From a virus, in IMG/VR virus record IMGVR_UViG_3300034631_000018, positions 1 through 37,224 of that record: a DNA stretch of 37,224 nt. One strand, written 5' to 3'. Positions 312-37,040 of the stretch are shown piece by piece. The position numbers and the translations under genes were made by a program. Numbering within the stretch: the first letter of the stretch is position 1; every line of letters starts with the position of its first letter. Under the pieces are notes generated by a model that worked only from the letters and a program-made list of their open reading frames with translations, ran no database searches and had not been told where the DNA came from.

Positions 312-1472
312 GTGCGGGCAATGCACCGCTTGAGCGCCAAGGCCGTCGCCACTTTAGGCCCCGGCAAATATGCCGATGGGGCAGGGCTCTGGCTTTATAA
401 GCGCGACGATGGCGGCGCTCAATGGGTGCTCCGCTATACCGTCCACGGCCGGCGCCGCGAGATGGGGCTTGGCAGGCTCGACGATGTTTCCCTCAAGCAA
501 GCCCGCATCGATGCCGAACAATGGCGTGGCGTGGTGCGAACCGGCAAGGATCCGATCAAAGAGCGCGACAAGCAGCGGCTAGAGGCCTCGCGCAATATTC
601 ATCTCCTCAAGGACATCGCCCTCGACGCCTTCGAGAGCCGCAAAGCAGAGCTAAAGGGTGACGGGGTGGCTGGCCGCTGGTTTAGCCCCCTGGAGCTGCA
701 CGTGCTGCCCAAGCTGGGCAAAGTCCCGGTTTCAGAGATAGATCAGCGCGACATCCGCGACACCCTGGCGCCGATCTGGCACATCAAAGCCGACACTGCT
801 CGCAAGGCCATGAACCGGCTGGGGCTATGTCTCAAGCATGCCGCGGCGCTCGGTCTCGAAGTCGACTTGCAAGCGACCGACAAAGCCCGCGCCCTGCTAG
901 GCCAGCAGCGCCATGTGGTGGCGAACATCCCGGCGCTGCACTGGTCAAAGGTGCCTGCCTTCTATGCCAGCCTGAGCGACGGCACTGTCACGCACCTGGC
1001 GCTCCGACTGATGATCCTGACGGTGGCCCGCTCCATGCCTTTGCGGCACATCCATGAAGATCAGATCGACGGCGATATCTGGACGATCCCCGGCGAGGCC
1101 ATGAAGGGACGCAAGGGCAAAACCCTGGACTTCCGCATCCCCCTATCCACCGAAGCAATGGCAGTGATTGAGCAGGCTCGAAAGCATGCGCGTGGCGGTT
1201 TCCTATTCCCCGGTCAGCTTCGTGGCGTGATCTCGGACATGACGATGAGCAAGCACATGGAGCGCGCCGGGATGGCCGAGCGCCCCCATGGGTTTCGATC
1301 CAGCATGCGGGACTGGATAGCCGAGACCACAGAGACGCCGCACGAGGTGGCCGAGACCATTCTCAGCCATGCCGTGGGGGATAAGGTGGAGAGATCCTAT
1401 CGTCGCACTGACTACATCGAGCAGCGGCGCAAGGTTATGGAAGCATGGGCCGCTTGGGTGACGAGCGGCTGA
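312..1472 (+). CDS. int: Tyrosine recombinase / phage integrase
   Basis: Site-specific recombinase that would integrate and excise the prophage. The N-terminal ~90 residues match the arm-binding (DUF4102-like) domain of P4-type integrases (YADGAGLWLY, RREMGLGRLDDVSLKQAR). The C-terminal catalytic domain shows Arg240 (TVARSM), the HGFR box (His326, Arg329), His354 (LSHAVGDKVERSY) and the nucleophile Tyr363. The usual TGxRxxE context of the first arginine is altered to VARSMPLR. The start is taken as GTG at 312; ATG at 321 in the same frame is an alternative. The 386-residue length is normal for the family. It is the leftmost phage gene and lies tail to tail with the minus-strand RHH gene. Confidence 0.95.
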   Translation: MRAMHRLSAKAVATLGPGKYADGAGLWLYKRDDGGAQWVLRYTVHGRRREMGLGRLDDVSLKQARIDAEQWRGVVRTGKDPIKERDKQRLEASRNIHLLKDIALDAFESRKAELKGDGVAGRWFSPLELHVLPKLGKVPVSEIDQRDIRDTLAPIWHIKADTARKAMNRLGLCLKHAAALGLEVDLQATDKARALLGQQRHVVANIPALHWSKVPAFYASLSDGTVTHLALRLMILTVARSMPLRHIHEDQIDGDIWTIPGEAMKGRKGKTLDFRIPLSTEAMAVIEQARKHARGGFLFPGQLRGVISDMTMSKHMERAGMAERPHGFRSSMRDWIAETTETPHEVAETILSHAVGDKVERSYRRTDYIEQRRKVMEAWAAWVTSG

Positions 1473-1487
1473 CAGGCATTTGATCGA

Positions 1488-2150
1488 TCATTTCTTCTTC
1501 CGAGGCGGCTTGTCGCGCAGCCGTTCCCATCCTTCGTTGTTCGGTTCGGGAGGCTTTGGCAGAGGCTCATCATCGGGCTTCAGTGTGCCGGCCAACTCTA
1601 TCGGCCTGCTTTCCGCTGAAGCCGAAGCTCCCCCGCCTCCCTTCAACTTGAGAACCTTCTTTTGCCGAACCTGATCGAGCAGCTCACCTAGACGAGTTAT
1701 TCCCTCCACCGTCAATAGATCTAGCGTTGCGACCTCATCCTTGACTGCTTGGCTACCCGCCAACGCAGTTTCCACGTCAGCAGTCCGAGCTCGTAGCGCA
1801 TCGACCTGCATCGAAAGGGCGATGTGCTCAGCCAAGCTAGCGCTTATCTGCTGCAAGAGAGGGTTTATGCCTTGCGAAGCGACACTCGCCACAAGGCCAG
1901 CCGCAGCGTTTTCCTGCCGTGCAGCAGCCCTCACCGACTGTGACAGAACGAGCACCCGTTCGGCCTCCGCTGCCACGCTGTCGACAAGACCGGGCATTGC
2001 CTCGTCTAACGCCAAGCCCATCTGAGACAGCCGTCGTATAGCCTCCGCGCGTGAGCGGATGCGATTTTGAAACATCCAGTCATCGAGGGTTTCCGCCTCC
2101 GCTGGAGACATCATCATCTGAAATTTCAGTGTCTTTTTTTCGCCCGCCAT
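1488..2150 (-). CDS. Ribbon-helix-helix protein with long helical tail; candidate prophage repressor
   Basis: A 220-residue protein. Residues 6-50 fit an RHH fold: a short beta strand (LKFQMMM), then a helix with DDWMFQNRI, a turn, and SRAEAIRRL. The same block occurs in the divergently transcribed gene at 2294 (about 21 of 46 residues identical). Residues ~55-165 are alanine/glutamate-rich and probably helical, which would suit oligomerisation. The C-terminus is proline-rich and ends in basic PPRKKK. A Shine-Dalgarno GGAGG lies just before the ATG. The gene is transcribed away from the early operon and next to the integrase, where temperate phages usually keep the repressor. RHH proteins of the Arc/MetJ class are known DNA binders; the repressor role is inferred. 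Confidence 0.75.
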   Translation of the reverse strand: MAGEKKTLKFQMMMSPAEAETLDDWMFQNRIRSRAEAIRRLSQMGLALDEAMPGLVDSVAAEAERVLVLSQSVRAAARQENAAAGLVASVASQGINPLLQQISASLAEHIALSMQVDALRARTADVETALAGSQAVKDEVATLDLLTVEGITRLGELLDQVRQKKVLKLKGGGGASASAESRPIELAGTLKPDDEPLPKPPEPNNEGWERLRDKPPRKKK

Positions 2151-2186
2151 ACGGTCCTCCAGCGGGGCTGAGGTTATCGTTTTCCC

Positions 2187-2286
2187 CCGTTACAACGTCA
2201 ATAGACGGAAGTTCCGTCACTTTGGGGTTGATTTTGAAAAGTCCTTGCGAGCATGGTTAAGCCGTTACTAACGGAACTAACGGAGG
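2187..2286. promoter_or_regulatory. Operator cluster between the divergent RHH genes
   Basis: This stretch holds several inverted and direct repeats. GACGGAA-G-TTCCGTC at 2204-2218 is a perfect 7-base inverted repeat. CCGTTA-C-TAACGG at 2262-2274 is a perfect 6-base inverted repeat. ACTAACGGA is duplicated in tandem at 2267-2284. A further half-site CCGTTA lies at 2187-2192. The last TAACGG copy runs into the ribosome binding site CGGAGG (2281-2286) of the plus-strand gene, so a bound protein would cover both start region and translation signal. TTGAAA at 2234 and TTAAGC at 2257, 17 bases apart, could be a weak early promoter. Short repeated half-sites are typical of RHH operators. Confidence 0.6.
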
Positions 2287-2293
2287 TTTTCTG

Positions 2294-2500
2294 GTGAGAG
2301 AAGCAAGAACCGCTAAGGTTCAAATCATGGTCGAGCCAAGCCTAGTGGCTCGTATCGACGACTGGCGGTTTCAGAACCGCATAGGTTCACGGTCTCAGGC
2401 AATGCGCAGCCTGATCCAGAACGCCATCAAAGCAGATGAAGAAAACGGTCCGGCAGCGACTGCAATCGCACCGGACCTGAACACGACCCATCCCCGGTAA
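2294..2500 (+). CDS. Small ribbon-helix-helix protein, Cro-like position
   Basis: A 68-residue protein, nearly all RHH domain: strand AKVQIMV at ~7-13, helix with DDWRFQNRI, then SRSQAMRSLIQNAI. It shares this block with the minus-strand protein encoded at 1488-2150 but lacks its helical tail. The GTG start is set by CGGAGG 7 bases upstream. It is the first gene of the early operon and its leader contains the repeated TAACGG sites. A role as autoregulator or antagonist of the longer paralogue is inferred; an antitoxin-type role is possible but no toxin is evident beside it. Confidence 0.75.
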   Translation: MREARTAKVQIMVEPSLVARIDDWRFQNRIGSRSQAMRSLIQNAIKADEENGPAATAIAPDLNTTHPR

Positions 2501-2512
2501 GGAATTAGATCA

Positions 2513-2899
2513 ATGAACGTGCAGACTAATACCACGCGCGCGCCTCAGGCCGCAATCGAAACTCCGACCGAACGGCTGATGGACCTATGCGCTCAGATCG
2601 CTGAGATCCTCGACGGGCAGTTTGGCGACCAGTTCGACGCAGTGATCAAATCGAACGGCAAAGTCTGGCTGAAGGACGCTGAGCGGATTTCGCCCATGCC
2701 GTCGCCCGAGGATGCTTTCGACATCGCCGCCGCAGCGCTGAATGTCGCTGCTCAAAACCTCGATCCCACCATCACCGGGCTCTGGCTCGGTCGCGATATG
2801 GGACCGGGCATCGAGGATCGAGGCCGGATCAGTTGCATCACCTTTGACCGTGGCAGCACTGCCCATCGTGCTGCTATGGCCGCGAGGGCTGGCAAATGA
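2513..2899 (+). CDS. Early-operon hypothetical protein, 128 aa
   Basis: Not recognised. It starts at ATG 12 bases after the RHH gene. The sequence is acidic to neutral with no membrane segment; residues ~50-90 look helical (SPEDAFDIAAAALNVAA). The stop codon TGA overlaps the ATG of the next gene (ATGA), which implies translational coupling within the early operon. Confidence 0.75.
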   Translation: MNVQTNTTRAPQAAIETPTERLMDLCAQIAEILDGQFGDQFDAVIKSNGKVWLKDAERISPMPSPEDAFDIAAAALNVAAQNLDPTITGLWLGRDMGPGIEDRGRISCITFDRGSTAHRAAMAARAGK

Positions 2900-3111
2900 G
2901 CCTCTCAACCTCTCAACTCATTGGCCTGATCGACCGCATCGACGAGACACGAGACCTCAACCATGTGGCCCTCATGGCTGCTGGAGACTTGGGCGACCGG
3001 CAAGACTCTGGTGGGCTAGTCCGCTTGCTTGGCATCGTCGCCAGTCAGCTCCAGTCCGTGCGTGACGATCTGGAGAAGCATCAGATGCAGGAGGCCGCTG
3101 ATGCATCCTGA
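2896..3111 (+). CDS. Early-operon hypothetical protein, 71 aa
   Basis: Not recognised. It overlaps its upstream neighbour by 4 bases and the AlpA-like gene downstream by 11 bases. The protein is predicted helical (LVRLLGIVASQLQSVRDDLE) with an acidic C-terminus. Gene position suggests an early phage function, but nothing in the sequence points to a specific activity. Confidence 0.65.
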   Translation: MSLSTSQLIGLIDRIDETRDLNHVALMAAGDLGDRQDSGGLVRLLGIVASQLQSVRDDLEKHQMQEAADAS

Positions 3112-3289
3112 CATCCTTCTCAAGACCATCGAGGTCCGCGAAATCCTGCGGGTCAGCCATGCCACTCTCTACCGGCGCATTGCTGATGGCACGATCCCCA
3201 AACCGATCAAGCTCGGAAGTGCCTCTCGTTGGCAGCGCTCCGACATCCTCGCCGCTATTGAGGCCGCGAAGAATGGGGGCGCCAAATGA
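3101..3289 (+). CDS. AlpA-family helix-turn-helix regulator / excisionase
   Basis: A 62-residue protein with the AlpA/MerR-like winged helix-turn-helix pattern: EVREILRVSHATLYRRI, then the GTIPKPIKLGSASRW segment, then a DILAAIEAA helix. Members of this family (prophage CP4-57 AlpA) activate excision or act as excisionases. The start is ATG 3101, preceded by GCAGGAGG; a longer open frame upstream has no such signal and overlaps the neighbouring gene. It is probably the partner of the integrase at 312. Confidence 0.85.
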   Translation: MHPDILLKTIEVREILRVSHATLYRRIADGTIPKPIKLGSASRWQRSDILAAIEAAKNGGAK

Positions 3290-3744
3290 GTACTGAGATC
3301 GACGATCTCGAACGCCATGTCCGCTCTATTTGGCCCGATCTCGGAAAGCCCCGGCCTGCCCTCGCCGAAGAAGATCGGGCTATCGCAGCAAAGCTCTTGG
3401 GCAAGGAAAATTTCCAGCGCCTATCCCGCGCCAAGAGTGGAGACCGGGTCAAGTACCGCACACCGGTCGTAACCGCAGAATATCACTGCTTTCCGTCAGC
3501 TACGATGGCTGGCGTTGAGCATTGGGTGATCACCCTCATCGAGGATGGCAAGCGTCGACCACTCAACATCTGGTTCTCGTACGAGGACTGTTTGCTGGGA
3601 ATTCGTTGGCTGGAGAGCAAGGGCGTCCCTGCCAAGCGAATTGAGACCGAGTACATGCGGCACCGGTCAGTGCCGCCGGCCAAAGCTCAACAAGACCGCA
3701 GCAAGCGCTTTGATGCCGACTGGCTGCGGAGGGCTACATCATGA
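3286..3744 (+). CDS. Early-operon hypothetical protein, 152 aa
   Basis: Not recognised. It overlaps the AlpA-like gene by 4 bases (ATGA). The N-terminus is acidic (IDDLERHVRSIWPDLG) and the middle is beta-rich and aromatic (EHWVITLIEDGKRRPLNIW). The C-terminus is basic. There are no membrane segments, cysteine clusters or known catalytic motifs. Confidence 0.7.
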   Translation: MSTEIDDLERHVRSIWPDLGKPRPALAEEDRAIAAKLLGKENFQRLSRAKSGDRVKYRTPVVTAEYHCFPSATMAGVEHWVITLIEDGKRRPLNIWFSYEDCLLGIRWLESKGVPAKRIETEYMRHRSVPPAKAQQDRSKRFDADWLRRATS

Positions 3745-3890
3745 TGTTCCTCCGAGCCTGCTGGAATGAACTGCGCATGCATCGCGCAATCTGGCATCGC
3801 CGCCAGCACGAGAAACTCTGTCGCAAGGTCGGTCTATACCTCGAGGACATTGAGGAAGGTTACAAGCTGCACGGGGGAGGTGGCCTATGA
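3741..3890 (+). CDS. Small basic early-operon protein, 49 aa
   Basis: A short open frame with overlapping junctions on both sides (ATGA type upstream, 4 bases downstream). It is rich in Arg, His and Trp in the first half (ELRMHRAIWHRRQHEK) and ends in a glycine run. The close packing into the operon is the main support for it being real. Function unknown. Confidence 0.55.
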   Translation: MMFLRACWNELRMHRAIWHRRQHEKLCRKVGLYLEDIEEGYKLHGGGGL

Positions 3891-4063
3891 GCCGACCCAT
3901 TCCCATTGAAGTGCTCGCTGCGGCCGAATGGCTGGCCAACAACTGGAGTGCCGCCTTCCGCAGTCCATCGATGGTCGGACTGCTGCGCAAGCAGTTCGGG
4001 CTCAGCCTAGACCACTCCATCAAAGCTATCGCGCAGGCCAAGCGCCTCCGAGCGGGGAGGTGA
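3887..4063 (+). CDS. Small early-operon protein, 58 aa
   Basis: A short open frame starting inside the stop of the 49-residue gene (ATGA). The sequence has a helix-rich character (IEVLAAAEWLANNW, SMVGLLRKQFGLSLD, IKAIAQAKRL), compatible with a small DNA-binding or adaptor protein. No family is recognised. The stop is followed 3 bases later by the GTG of the next gene. Confidence 0.6.
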   Translation: MSRPIPIEVLAAAEWLANNWSAAFRSPSMVGLLRKQFGLSLDHSIKAIAQAKRLRAGR

Positions 4064-4066
4064 TGA

Positions 4067-4777
4067 GTGCCACATCAAAAAAACCCGATGCGACGTACGT
4101 GGCTCAAAGACACGGACGGAGGGTGGATCGCTCATCGGCTAGAGCTGAAGGTGTCGCCATCTTGGCGGCACCGGCCTGTGCCGTTGATCCGGATATTGGA
4201 GCGGATCGAGGTCGAGCATCTTCGGCACGCTGGCAAGCAGAACGGGCAACTCACCGTGGCCTATGAACAGCTAGTGGCATGCGGTGTTTCCAGACGCGTA
4301 ATCGCTCCAGCTCTCGAGTGTGGTGTTCGGCTAGGACTTATCGAGGTCAGACAGACCCATGAGATGGTCAGCAACATCAAAAGCCCGAACCTATATCGGC
4401 TCACCTATGTGCCGGAGACGGACCGCAGGGCGCCGACAGATGAGTGGGCCAGAGTGACGGAGGAAGCAGCCAAGGCGGCGGCTGAGCACTTCCGGATCGC
4501 CCAGAAACAATCAGGAGGCCAGTTCCCTTTTCAGCAACCCTCTAGTTCCCTTTCCTGCACTGAAAAGGTCCCCTCTAGTTCCCTTTCCTGCAAGCCCCTA
4601 GTGCCCGTAAGGGAACATACTCTTACATCTGGGGGGGATACCGCTGATGCAGCGCAGGCCGCTGCGGAGGGAAAGCCCAACCCAAAAGGGCGCGCCCGCC
4701 GTAGTAGCGGACAAGCGAGCGGCTCCATCTCAGTAACCTCGACGCTCACTGCTCTCCTCGCGAAGGAGGCTCAGTAA
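4067..4777 (+). CDS. Helix-turn-helix protein, possible replication-related
   Basis: A 236-residue protein. Residues ~40-110 contain a winged-helix-like stretch (LTVAYEQLVACGVSRRVIAPAL, a helix pair, then NLYRLTY as a possible wing) seen in phage early regulators and replication-associated proteins. Residues ~145-185 hold a repeated SSSLSC element, and the C-terminus is low-complexity and basic. Start GTG 4067 is chosen because GGGGAGG lies 6 bases upstream; ATG 4063 opens a different, implausible frame. It is the largest early gene and sits where a replication initiator would be, but that role is inferred. Confidence 0.65.
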   Translation: MPHQKNPMRRTWLKDTDGGWIAHRLELKVSPSWRHRPVPLIRILERIEVEHLRHAGKQNGQLTVAYEQLVACGVSRRVIAPALECGVRLGLIEVRQTHEMVSNIKSPNLYRLTYVPETDRRAPTDEWARVTEEAAKAAAEHFRIAQKQSGGQFPFQQPSSSLSCTEKVPSSSLSCKPLVPVREHTLTSGGDTADAAQAAAEGKPNPKGRARRSSGQASGSISVTSTLTALLAKEAQ

Positions 4778-5034
4778 TGGCTCAGCTCGTTTGCTTCCCC
4801 CAAGAGAGGAACATCGGCAAGGCGAGGCGGGTAGCGTCTGTCTATCTTGGCAAGCGTACCGAAAAGGCTCGCTCAAGCTATTGGGGCGACACCTGCAACC
4901 GGCTGCAATGGACGATGCAGCGGTGCGGCTTCATCGACCACGAGATCGAGCGCCAGATCCAGGCCTTCAAGTGGGCAGTGGAGGAGGAACTCGATCGTCT
5001 ATCTCAACGCGGCAATGGACCAGGAGCAGCATGA
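4777..5034 (+). CDS. DUF6074-like small protein
   Basis: An 85-residue protein resembling the DUF6074 pattern of rhizobial phages: FP followed by a basic stretch (RNIGKARRVASVYL), then YWGDTCNRLQWTMQRCGF, then an amphipathic C-terminal helix with FKWAVEEELDRL. The ATG shares its A with the upstream TAA, and AAGGAGG precedes it. Function of the family is unknown. The family assignment is from memory of the pattern and should be treated as tentative. Confidence 0.7.
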   Translation: MAQLVCFPQERNIGKARRVASVYLGKRTEKARSSYWGDTCNRLQWTMQRCGFIDHEIERQIQAFKWAVEEELDRLSQRGNGPGAA

Positions 5035-7829: not shown

Positions 7830-8315
7830 TTAGCGCAGGTAAGGCGAGATGCACTGCTGACGCGGCCCATTGTAGGGCTGGAACGTATTGTCCGATGCCC
7901 GGTAGGAGCGGAAGCGGTTCTCGCACCACACCAGGTGCTCGCGTGTAATGCGGACAGCCCCATAGCTGTTCTGGTGGCGATTGTTCTGATTGGCGATCGC
8001 ACCACTGATAATGCCGCCGAAGATGGCGCCGATAAACGCCTCCGGCGGGAAGTAGAAACCGTTGTACTGGCGATAGCCACGATGGCGATCACGACTGCCA
8101 CGGTGACCATTGAAATACACGCCATCACGCCGACGTTCGAACCGATCACGGGCATCCCAGCCGCCGCGGCGGTCGCGATCCCAGCGATCCTGAACGTTGA
8201 TGAACTGAGCGCCTGAGGTAATCTGCACCGATGCCGCATTGGCGGGCACCGTTGCTGCACCGAAGCTGGTGACAGCCATGATAGCGGCGCAAGCGCCGGC
8301 AATAATCTTCTTCAT
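7830..8315 (-). CDS. BA14K family protein
   Basis: A 161-residue exported protein. ATG 8315 opens a signal peptide (MKKIIAGACAAIMAVTSFG...). Residues ~35-90 are very rich in Arg, Asp and Tyr. A glycine/alanine membrane-like stretch follows (AFIGAIFGGIISGAIA). The C-terminus carries the BA14K hallmark: HLVWCENRFRSYRASDNTF, then QPYNGPRQQC. This family is known from Brucella and relatives as an immunoreactive lectin-like surface protein. It is a host-type gene located between the phage early and late regions, on the opposite strand, consistent with cargo picked up from a hyphomicrobial host. Confidence 0.9.
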   Translation of the reverse strand: MKKIIAGACAAIMAVTSFGAATVPANAASVQITSGAQFINVQDRWDRDRRGGWDARDRFERRRDGVYFNGHRGSRDRHRGYRQYNGFYFPPEAFIGAIFGGIISGAIANQNNRHQNSYGAVRITREHLVWCENRFRSYRASDNTFQPYNGPRQQCISPYLR

Positions 8316-8441
8316 CTGATTGCTCCTCGTCGGTCCACCCACCGCAGGACTCAGCAATGTCTACACGCCGGATTCGTTCGGCACATGGCGGTCATACTTG
8401 TTCACCATCCCGAGAGCATCAGAGCTGCAACTGAGTGAGCG

Positions 8442-36080: not shown

Positions 36081-36408
36081 TCAATCCAGCCCCTCGATTT
36101 CCGACAGCTTGCCCCAGTCGTCGCGCCAGACGGATCGGTGCTGCAGGCTGATTGCCACCCCGCTCATAAGCCCACAGCGCACAGAGCAGTTCCGCCCGTT
36201 CTAGGGCCTCAGGAACAGAGTAGGGGCCTTCCATGGCAGCCTTCACCATGTCGCCCTGGGTGATCCAGTCTGGCCAGTAGATCGAGGCTGTCGGTTCTTC
36301 CGGTTCGATGCCGACGGCAGCTAATGCCTGCGCATCGCTACCAATGCCGACGGTGATCGCGTCTAGGGCGATCTCATCATCGTCCGTGGTCCATTGGTAT
36401 GTGCTCAC
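36081..36408 (-). pseudogene. Small phage protein with a one-base frameshift
   Basis: GTG 36408 overlaps the stop of the thermonuclease gene (GTGA). The first frame reads MSTYQWTTDDDEIALDAITV and continues to ELLCALWAYER. At a run of four C (36158-36161 on the plus strand) the natural continuation switches frame: removing one base gives YERVAISLQHRSVWRDDWGK and an end at TGA 36083. That ending fits short phage proteins with a VxI...W...WG pattern. As written, the first frame runs on to 35896 through less protein-like sequence. Confidence 0.55.
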
Positions 36409-36830
36409 TCGCACCACCACTCCTCACCATCAGGCCATCGGCGCGCCAGGTGCTCTTTGATCAGTATGTCCCCAACGTCCTGTCCGCCGATCTTGATTGT
36501 CGCCAGCCGGCGCTTGCTGCTGGTGCTATCGTGACCGAAGTACTCGATCGTCCAATCGTGGCTGTTGAGCAGTTCCAACATCCGAGCACTGGCCATTGAT
36601 GCAAGCGCCTTCTCATTGTCGCCGCCGCAGATCGCTGTTTGAGGCTCCGGCGTGTCAAAGTCCTTGAGCCTAATGTTCTCGCCGTGGAGCCAAAGCGTGT
36701 CGCCATCCACCAGGCACGTCTTGTCCGGCGTGTTCGGCCGATTGTTGCACATCTCCAGCTTAGGCTGCTGAGCCACCGCTGATGTCGTCAGCATCGCAGC
36801 GACTGCCACCACCGCAGCAAGAAGCTTCAT
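36405..36830 (-). CDS. Secreted thermonuclease-family (SNase-like) protein
   Basis: A 141-residue protein. ATG 36830 gives a signal peptide (MKLLAAVVAVAAMLTTSAVA) and has GGAGAAGAC upstream. The SNase-like core follows: CLVDGDTLWLHGENIRLKDF, DTPEPQTAICGG, then a helix and RRLATIKIGGQDVGDILIKE and ARRWPDGE. Staphylococcal nuclease active residues are recognisable in part (the Asp/Glu in DTPE and Arg in KRRLA). It probably acts on extracellular or periplasmic nucleic acid. Such genes are common in rhizobial prophages and plasmids. Confidence 0.85.
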   Translation of the reverse strand: MKLLAAVVAVAAMLTTSAVAQQPKLEMCNNRPNTPDKTCLVDGDTLWLHGENIRLKDFDTPEPQTAICGGDNEKALASMASARMLELLNSHDWTIEYFGHDSTSSKRRLATIKIGGQDVGDILIKEHLARRWPDGEEWWCE

Positions 36831-36866
36831 TGTCTTCTCCCCCAATTTGCCGGAGCATTCGTGCAC

Positions 36867-37040
36867 ATGAACTGCCCTCATTGCCAGCGCCCATTGGAAA
36901 TGCAGGTTCACAGATCGGGGGGGACGTGGTGGGGCTTCACCAGATGTCTGGCCTGCGCTCCTGCTGGTGCATGGCAGCCGCGGGGAGAGGTCGATGTGGT
37001 CTGGCGTGCGGAAACTCGCCCCTGTGAATCGCGGCGATAA
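36867..37040 (+). CDS. Zinc-ribbon-like protein, 57 aa
   Basis: ATG 36867 opens MNCPHCQRPLEMQVHRSGGT, then WWGFTRCLAC and an acidic stretch EVDVVWRAE. Two CxxC pairs (CPHC and CLAC) 25 residues apart form a likely zinc ribbon. GGAG lies 11 bases upstream, somewhat far. It is divergent from the thermonuclease gene. Function unknown. Confidence 0.6.
   Translation: MNCPHCQRPLEMQVHRSGGTWWGFTRCLACAPAGAWQPRGEVDVVWRAETRPCESRR

Follow-up and report, generated by a model that had tools for sequence, protein, structure and literature searches.

A divergent pair of long and short ribbon-helix-helix proteins with putative shared operators as a candidate phage transcription switch

The stretch of DNA analyzed here (the window, 37,224 bases) is an IMG/VR virus record that carries terminase, portal, capsid, and lysis genes. 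Neither tRNA genes nor attachment-site repeats were found in the record, which may be incomplete, a fragment. Near its left end lie an integrase gene, two divergent genes for ribbon-helix-helix (RHH) proteins, here called RHH-L (long) and RHH-S (short), and a series of early genes. The features of this region are the following.

312 to 1472, plus strand: tyrosine integrase gene (Pfam PF13356, PF22022, and PF00589) at the left end of the record, convergent with the RHH-L gene
1488 to 2150, minus strand: RHH-L, 220 aa, an N-terminal RHH domain and a long helical tail; proposed maintenance repressor
2112 to 2126, minus strand: putative RHH-L recognition strand K9-F-Q11-M-M13, from the alignment, homology to AmrZ for the contact positions, and covariation
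2173 to 2178, minus strand: weak -10 box GATAAC of the long-gene promoter, poorly conserved
2196 to 2201, minus strand: TTGACG, putative -35 box for the long gene, identical in six relatives
2204 to 2218, no strand: predicted operator O1, GACGGAA-g-TTCCGTC, between the divergent -35 boxes and conserved in six loci
2228 to 2257, plus strand: putative RHH-S promoter (-35 box TTGATT at 2228 to 2233, -10 box CATGGT at 2252 to 2257)
2262 to 2284, no strand: predicted operator O2, CCGTTA-c-TAACGGA-ac-TAACGGA, conserved, extending from the predicted transcription start of the short gene into its ribosome site
2282 to 2286, plus strand: RHH-S ribosome binding site GGAGG, merged with the last O2 half-site and found in most class-A relatives
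2294 to 2500, plus strand: RHH-S, 68 aa, GTG start, little more than an RHH domain; heads the early operon and is the proposed Cro-like partner
2315 to 2329, plus strand: putative RHH-S recognition strand K8-V-Q10-I-M12, with the same outward K-Q-M as RHH-L, from the alignment and covariation
2513 to 4777, plus strand: other early genes of the presumed RHH-S operon (128, 71, 152, 49, 58, and 236 aa)
3102 to 3289, plus strand: HTH_17 protein of the AlpA-like, excisionase type, encoded in the operon that the RHH-S gene heads

Pfam and NCBIfam scans gave no informative family match for the other early genes, and no DNA-binding family other than the AlpA-like one was seen among the early open reading frames (ORFs) scanned. 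A relative of the 152-aa early gene lies downstream of the short gene at a Devosia locus (L185). The 236-aa ORF contains a perfect 22-base direct repeat (CCCTCTAGTTCCCTTTCCTGCA) with a 33-base spacing at 4538 to 4592, and an 85-aa DUF6074 gene (PF19551) lies at 4777 to 5034, relatives of which stand beside the pair in G361 and in Cucumibacter. Two minus-strand genes of the window, at 7830 to 8357 and 36405 to 36911, resemble the BA14K and staphylococcal nuclease families and are possibly cargo genes or host flank.

The initial annotation had described the two divergent genes as RHH paralogs of 220 and 68 residues with a common DDW-x-FQNRI-x-SR motif. The ORFs and the motif are indeed there, and RHH-S matched RHH-L with an E value of 5.8e-11 (39% identity over 56 residues and 46% over the RHH block). 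The RHH domain of RHH-L is 75 to 78% identical to that of its orthologs, and its tail can barely be aligned. Neither protein has a Pfam match. Over a domain of about 45 residues, the RHH domain, both are matched by phrog_4738, annotated as a transcriptional repressor (E values of 4e-4 and 3.6e-8), and by phrog_32935, whose function is unannotated (2e-13 and 2.6e-4). Both PHROGs are single-domain families, in which neither the paired architecture nor a shared operator code is recorded.

We then considered the fold. A profile of the 41 short proteins described below matched Escherichia coli NikR, a solved RHH protein, with an E value of 0.0016; profile searches of PDB sequences returned NikR and not Arc or Mnt. 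The AlphaFold model of RHH-S showed an extended strand region followed by helices at residues 15 to 27 and 33 to 51, with pLDDT values of at least 88 in blocks of residues 11 to 50. In the RHH-L model, helices span residues 16 to 28 and 34 to 78, the second being thus extended, and apart from one disordered stretch the tail is largely helical. The strand itself was not assigned in the monomer model of either protein; in RHH proteins it forms upon dimerization (PMC3325190). The best Foldseek matches of the RHH-S model were mostly RHH proteins (NikR, MazE-mt1, SvtR, ParD, and CdbA), none of them below an E value of 0.6, as expected for a chain of 68 residues, and the RHH-L model, tail included, gave no meaningful match. 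The strand-then-two-helices pattern, together with the NikR match, supports the RHH fold that had been predicted for both proteins.

Between the two genes, the 7-base and 6-base inverted repeats noted previously are present, the former as O1 (2204 to 2218) and the latter as CCGTTA-c-TAACGG within O2 (2262 to 2274). The four CCGTTA/TAACGG half-sites are also all there, at 2187, 2262, 2269, and 2278, the last copy (2278 to 2283) running into the GGAGG of the ribosome site. The 37 kb hold nine copies of CCGTTA, about the number expected by chance, and four of the nine fall in the 143-bp gap. We compared six orthologous gaps of the window's own class, taken from different genera. In the O1 block (2196 to 2223) and the -10/O2 block (2253 to 2285), 44 of 61 columns were invariant, compared to 4 of 82 elsewhere, which argues that the repeats exceed chance. 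However, the recurring half-site appears to be (A/G)ACGGA rather than CCGTTA, and the outermost CCGTTA (2187 to 2192) is not kept in the relatives and is therefore probably incidental. The window contains no second strong copy of O1, and O2 occurs as a single exact copy.

A strict sigma-70 scan found no promoter, and both gap promoters are weak sigma-70 matches; the ATGGTT of the -10 region of the RHH-S promoter is conserved in relatives. Transcription starts were predicted by taking the center of the -35 box as about -32.5. On this basis, O1 would be centered at about -45 relative to the long gene and -52 relative to the short gene, and O2 would span positions of about -2 to +20 relative to the latter.

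With the family's own profiles as queries, viral and genome contigs and whole genomes yielded 45 distinct divergent long/short RHH pairs, mostly from Hyphomicrobiales prophages. In every one of them, one protein has a long tail (68 to 179 aa) and the other a short one (6 to 38 aa), and the domain starts lie 116 to 183 bp apart. Of the genomes sampled, about 3% in one order and 6% in one family had a long-type match. For the covariation, operator, and tree analyses, 41 representative pairs were used. In a maximum-likelihood tree resting on 46 columns, too few to resolve much beyond the long/short split, all 41 long proteins fell on one side of a single branch (94/87; 92% of bootstrap trees), and the split is therefore probably one ancient event. 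The helix identity between partners was 0.44 within pairs and 0.43 between pairs. Hence, the proposal that the two genes arose by duplication is supported only for such an ancient event, while recent duplication within each lineage was rejected on the basis of both the helix identities and the single branch.

We next asked how far partners agree along the recognition strand. At strand position 11, they agreed in 33 of the 41 pairs, against 12.6 expected on re-pairing (z of 7.6), and at position 9 likewise in 33, against 23.4 expected (z of 4.0). The agreement was weaker at position 13 (30 against 26.5; z of 2.0), and the remaining domain positions showed no excess apart from position 8 (z of 2.8). 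Shared ancestry alone as the cause of this agreement was unsupported, the same count having been made at every other domain position, and recent duplication was ruled out because the helix identity is equal within and between pairs. Positions 9, 11, and 13 are the alternating outward positions of the AmrZ type, AmrZ contacting bases through the alternating outward strand residues Lys18, Val20, and Arg22 (PMC3325190). NikR and AmrZ thus resemble the window proteins in their RHH fold and, in the case of AmrZ, in contacts at strand positions i, i+2, and i+4. In contrast, the window proteins have no visible nickel-binding domain, and NikR and AmrZ are unpaired, chromosomal proteins and not phage switches.

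The gaps were then examined for matching operators. Most contain the same sequence on both sides of a TTGAC box, individually at a P value of ≤0.05 in 28 of the 41, and TTGAC stands on the short-gene strand in 37 of the 41 gaps, compared to 5.2 in shuffles. With motifs picked after the sequences had been seen, so that the P values are descriptive, GCACAA occurred in at least two copies in all 17 Arg-Pro pairs and in none of the 24 others (P = 7e-12); A(C/T)GGA occurred in at least four copies in all 13 Lys-Gln pairs and in none of the 28 others, and in at least three copies in 13/13 and 4/28, respectively (P = 1.4e-7); and GTAAAC was found in four of five Arg-Val pairs and in 3 of the 36 others. 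Covariation with the operators was therefore seen for the alternating strand residues 9 and 11, which are putative DNA contacts. As the partners agree in these residues and the operators track them, RHH-L and RHH-S very probably both read O1 and O2, in good agreement with the shared operators of the initial annotation. The covariation shows that both proteins and their operators change together, not which protein represses which promoter.

The search for the same divergent pair next to integrases elsewhere, which the initial annotation had proposed, was successful, and we determined what else surrounds it. In tests of 24 viral records, each having the pair or at least the long gene, an S24-type CI repressor exceeded the curated cutoff in 13 and an HTH_3 match did so in 19. 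In most of the mapped records having an S24-type repressor, it lies within about 5 kb of the pair, and where the two adjoin, the pair usually stands between repressor and integrase. The recurrent order in the nineteen viral records mapped is integrase, short gene (towards the integrase), long gene, CI, and Cro. Given this proximity, the pair in such layouts would be a second switch, serving the integrase-side operon. Since S24-type repressors occur in more than half of the records, and HTH_3 proteins in still more, the pair does not replace CI/Cro in general.

The orientation of the pair to the integrase flips between phages. In the window's class (ACGGA), the integrase gene adjoins the long gene at six of six loci, in convergent orientation at four and codirectional at the other two, and the short gene is transcribed away from the integrase gene. 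At the Devosia locus (L008/L185), the integrase gene and the long RHH gene lie on one strand and share 4 bp (L008, 4980 to 6742), which suggests that the two are cotranscribed. No S24 repressor was found near the pair in this class of loci. Furthermore, neither a Peptidase_S24 nor an HTH_3 match was found anywhere in the 37-kb record, confirming that it contains no CI- or Cro-like repressor recognizable by these families, and HTH_3 matches were likewise missing from the Devosia contig and from the prophage-side part of G361. The other relatives differ: one HTH_3 protein is encoded about 23 kb away in the Mesorhizobium prophage, another about 1.5 kb from the pair, in the operon of the short gene, in the Cucumibacter relative, and the Brucella contig has only a subthreshold HTH_3 match about 25 kb away. 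A CI-like repressor was thus not found in the window phage or its closest relatives, for which the pair appears to be the best candidate for the main switch. The role of lysogeny switch initially assigned to the pair is therefore plausible for the window phage, but the S24-type repressors of other records mean that it cannot be read off the whole family.

We propose, with a probability of roughly 60%, that the pair is a bistable RHH-fold transcription switch acting on shared operators, a candidate for the main switch here and a second switch in many relatives. Sequence and covariation are the basis for the genes, the operators, and the shared specificity, and from these we infer repression, activation, cooperativity, and a role in lysogeny as follows. 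Dimers of RHH-L and of RHH-S would read (A/G)ACGGA half-sites through the same outward Lys-Gln-Met. Since O2 covers the start region and the ribosome site of the short-gene promoter, its occupation should shut off the early operon, i.e., the short gene, the AlpA-like excisionase gene, and the early genes that follow. A dimer on O1, between the -35 boxes, could act on the long gene as either an activator or a repressor. RHH-L, with its helical tail, would bind cooperatively and keep the prophage silent, and RHH-S, which has no such tail, would occupy the same sites once the early promoter has fired and turn RHH-L off, as Cro does to CI. We infer that RHH-S antagonizes RHH-L in this way.

The arrangement is like that of lambda CI/Cro: a long repressor gene and a short regulator gene diverge with operators between them, shared in the window as judged by covariation, the early operon begins with the short gene, and the long gene is on the side of the integrase. 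Nevertheless, the pair is not a member of the CI/Cro family, because its proteins have the RHH rather than the helix-turn-helix fold and the S24 self-cleavage domain is absent. In addition, two operators are predicted in the window, compared to the three-site OR of lambda. No evidence of SOS induction was seen; the one LexA-like box of the window (GTTC-N7-GTTC) falls within a coding sequence and matches the number expected by chance.

A less likely reading, which nevertheless deserves weight, is that the pair is an accessory switch for one operon, governing excision and neighboring early genes, while another, unrecognized repressor keeps lysogeny. Indeed, the pair stands beside a separate CI in most mapped relatives (L013, L101, L103, L104, L117, L126, L129, L130, L131, and L143). 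In these relatives, the short gene points away from CI and, where the record includes the integrase, towards it, and in the window an AlpA-like gene is within the operon of the short gene. However, the window lacks both S24 and HTH_3 matches, and the early ORFs scanned show the AlpA-like DNA-binding family only. Moreover, its orientation is reversed, the long gene adjoining the integrase gene and the short gene heading the main early operon, which favors the pair as main switch in this phage.

The nearest precedent for the window pair is Mnt/Arc of phage P22, whose genes are divergent and of whose products Arc is short. Mnt and Arc bind different operators, whereas the window partners share contact residues and very probably operators. 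Mnt represses arc and ant, and Arc inhibits mnt expression and moderates that of ant (PMC11016777); Mnt has a C-terminal tetramerization domain, and the specificity of both proteins is set by a short N-terminal region (PMC3325190, the latter point as cited there from Knight and Sauer 1989). Thus, P22 immI likewise has two RHH repressors, one tailed (Mnt) and one short (Arc), with mutual effects on expression, and a divergent long and short RHH pair is what we found in the window.

It could be argued that the window pair is such a secondary immunity region, controlling an antirepressor that acts on a second one, as Mnt and Arc are RHH proteins sharing one immunity region (PMC11016777). We consider this improbable. 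The P22 region is secondary, includes Ant, and exists beside C2/Cro, whereas neither an antirepressor nor CI was found in the window. No antirepressor-type family was detected by Pfam and NCBIfam among the early genes scanned, including those presumably cotranscribed with the short gene, although a diverged one could be missed, and the window offers no primary repressor for an antirepressor to target. Many RHH proteins are antitoxins or partition proteins, and the RHH-S model resembles MazE, ParD, and PrpA in Foldseek, but a regulator of this kind with its own operator cluster, unrelated to lysogeny, is the least probable reading of all: PADLOC returned no toxin- or defense-family match for the pair and three neighboring genes, no ParA-like gene was seen among the scanned ORFs, and the divergent paralog architecture is invariant, with integrase or CI/Cro neighbors in phage records.

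Overall, the pair looks like an undescribed switch that would do the job of lambda CI/Cro with a different fold. The open-access literature, which omits most subscription journals, yielded no description of a shared-operator RHH pair of this kind, nor of an RHH lysogeny pair in rhizobial phages. P22 provides the best-known case of RHH repressor pairs in immunity; their role there is accessory, and the sites that they read differ. Here, in contrast, contact residues stay identical between partners in many natural pairs while the operators change in step, so that the pairs represent a natural experiment on the coevolution of a repressor, its antagonist, and their shared sites. They may also hold a residue-to-operator code: if two or three strand residues suffice to tell the specificity, phage immunity groups would be predictable from sequence. 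In addition, the pair could supply candidate repressors for those rhizobial phages that have no recognized one; four phiLM21-like prophages, for example, show no similarity to known phage regulators (PMC12429752). In a wider form, the proposal would be that paired long and short RHH proteins constitute an ancient and widespread family of phage switches, CI/Cro-like by convergence, whose specificity is readable from two or three strand residues and which are the sole lysogeny switch of some Hyphomicrobiales phages, the window phage among them; we regard this wider claim as evenly poised.

Finally, 50,697 phage records were compared to the window proteins and three relatives, and gave no match or weak ones only, the weak ones being to Komagataeibacter, Azospirillum, and Bacillus phages. 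The isolated Azospirillum phage Cd (L181) contains a divergent short/long pair of RHH-like genes that lacks annotation (2188 to 2397, minus strand, and about 2484 to 2896, plus strand), with GRKMVSL strands in both proteins and GGTAC/GGTACGTT repeated in the gap. In Bacillus phage vB_BhaS-171 (L183; 2142 to 2671), two small divergent genes annotated as transcriptional repressors lie beside replication genes; gp50, and perhaps gp51 as well, is RHH-like, and related switches may therefore exist in Firmicutes phages. In Brucella sp. 21LCYQ03, a second divergent RHH pair (G004 contig C445, 68770 to 69222) is present in the same genome as L011. Lastly, the viral contig IMGVR_UViG_3300017816_000018 (L005, 3917 to 5362) contains a same-strand set of three or perhaps four RHH genes, the first of which has a recognition strand of the window's class.
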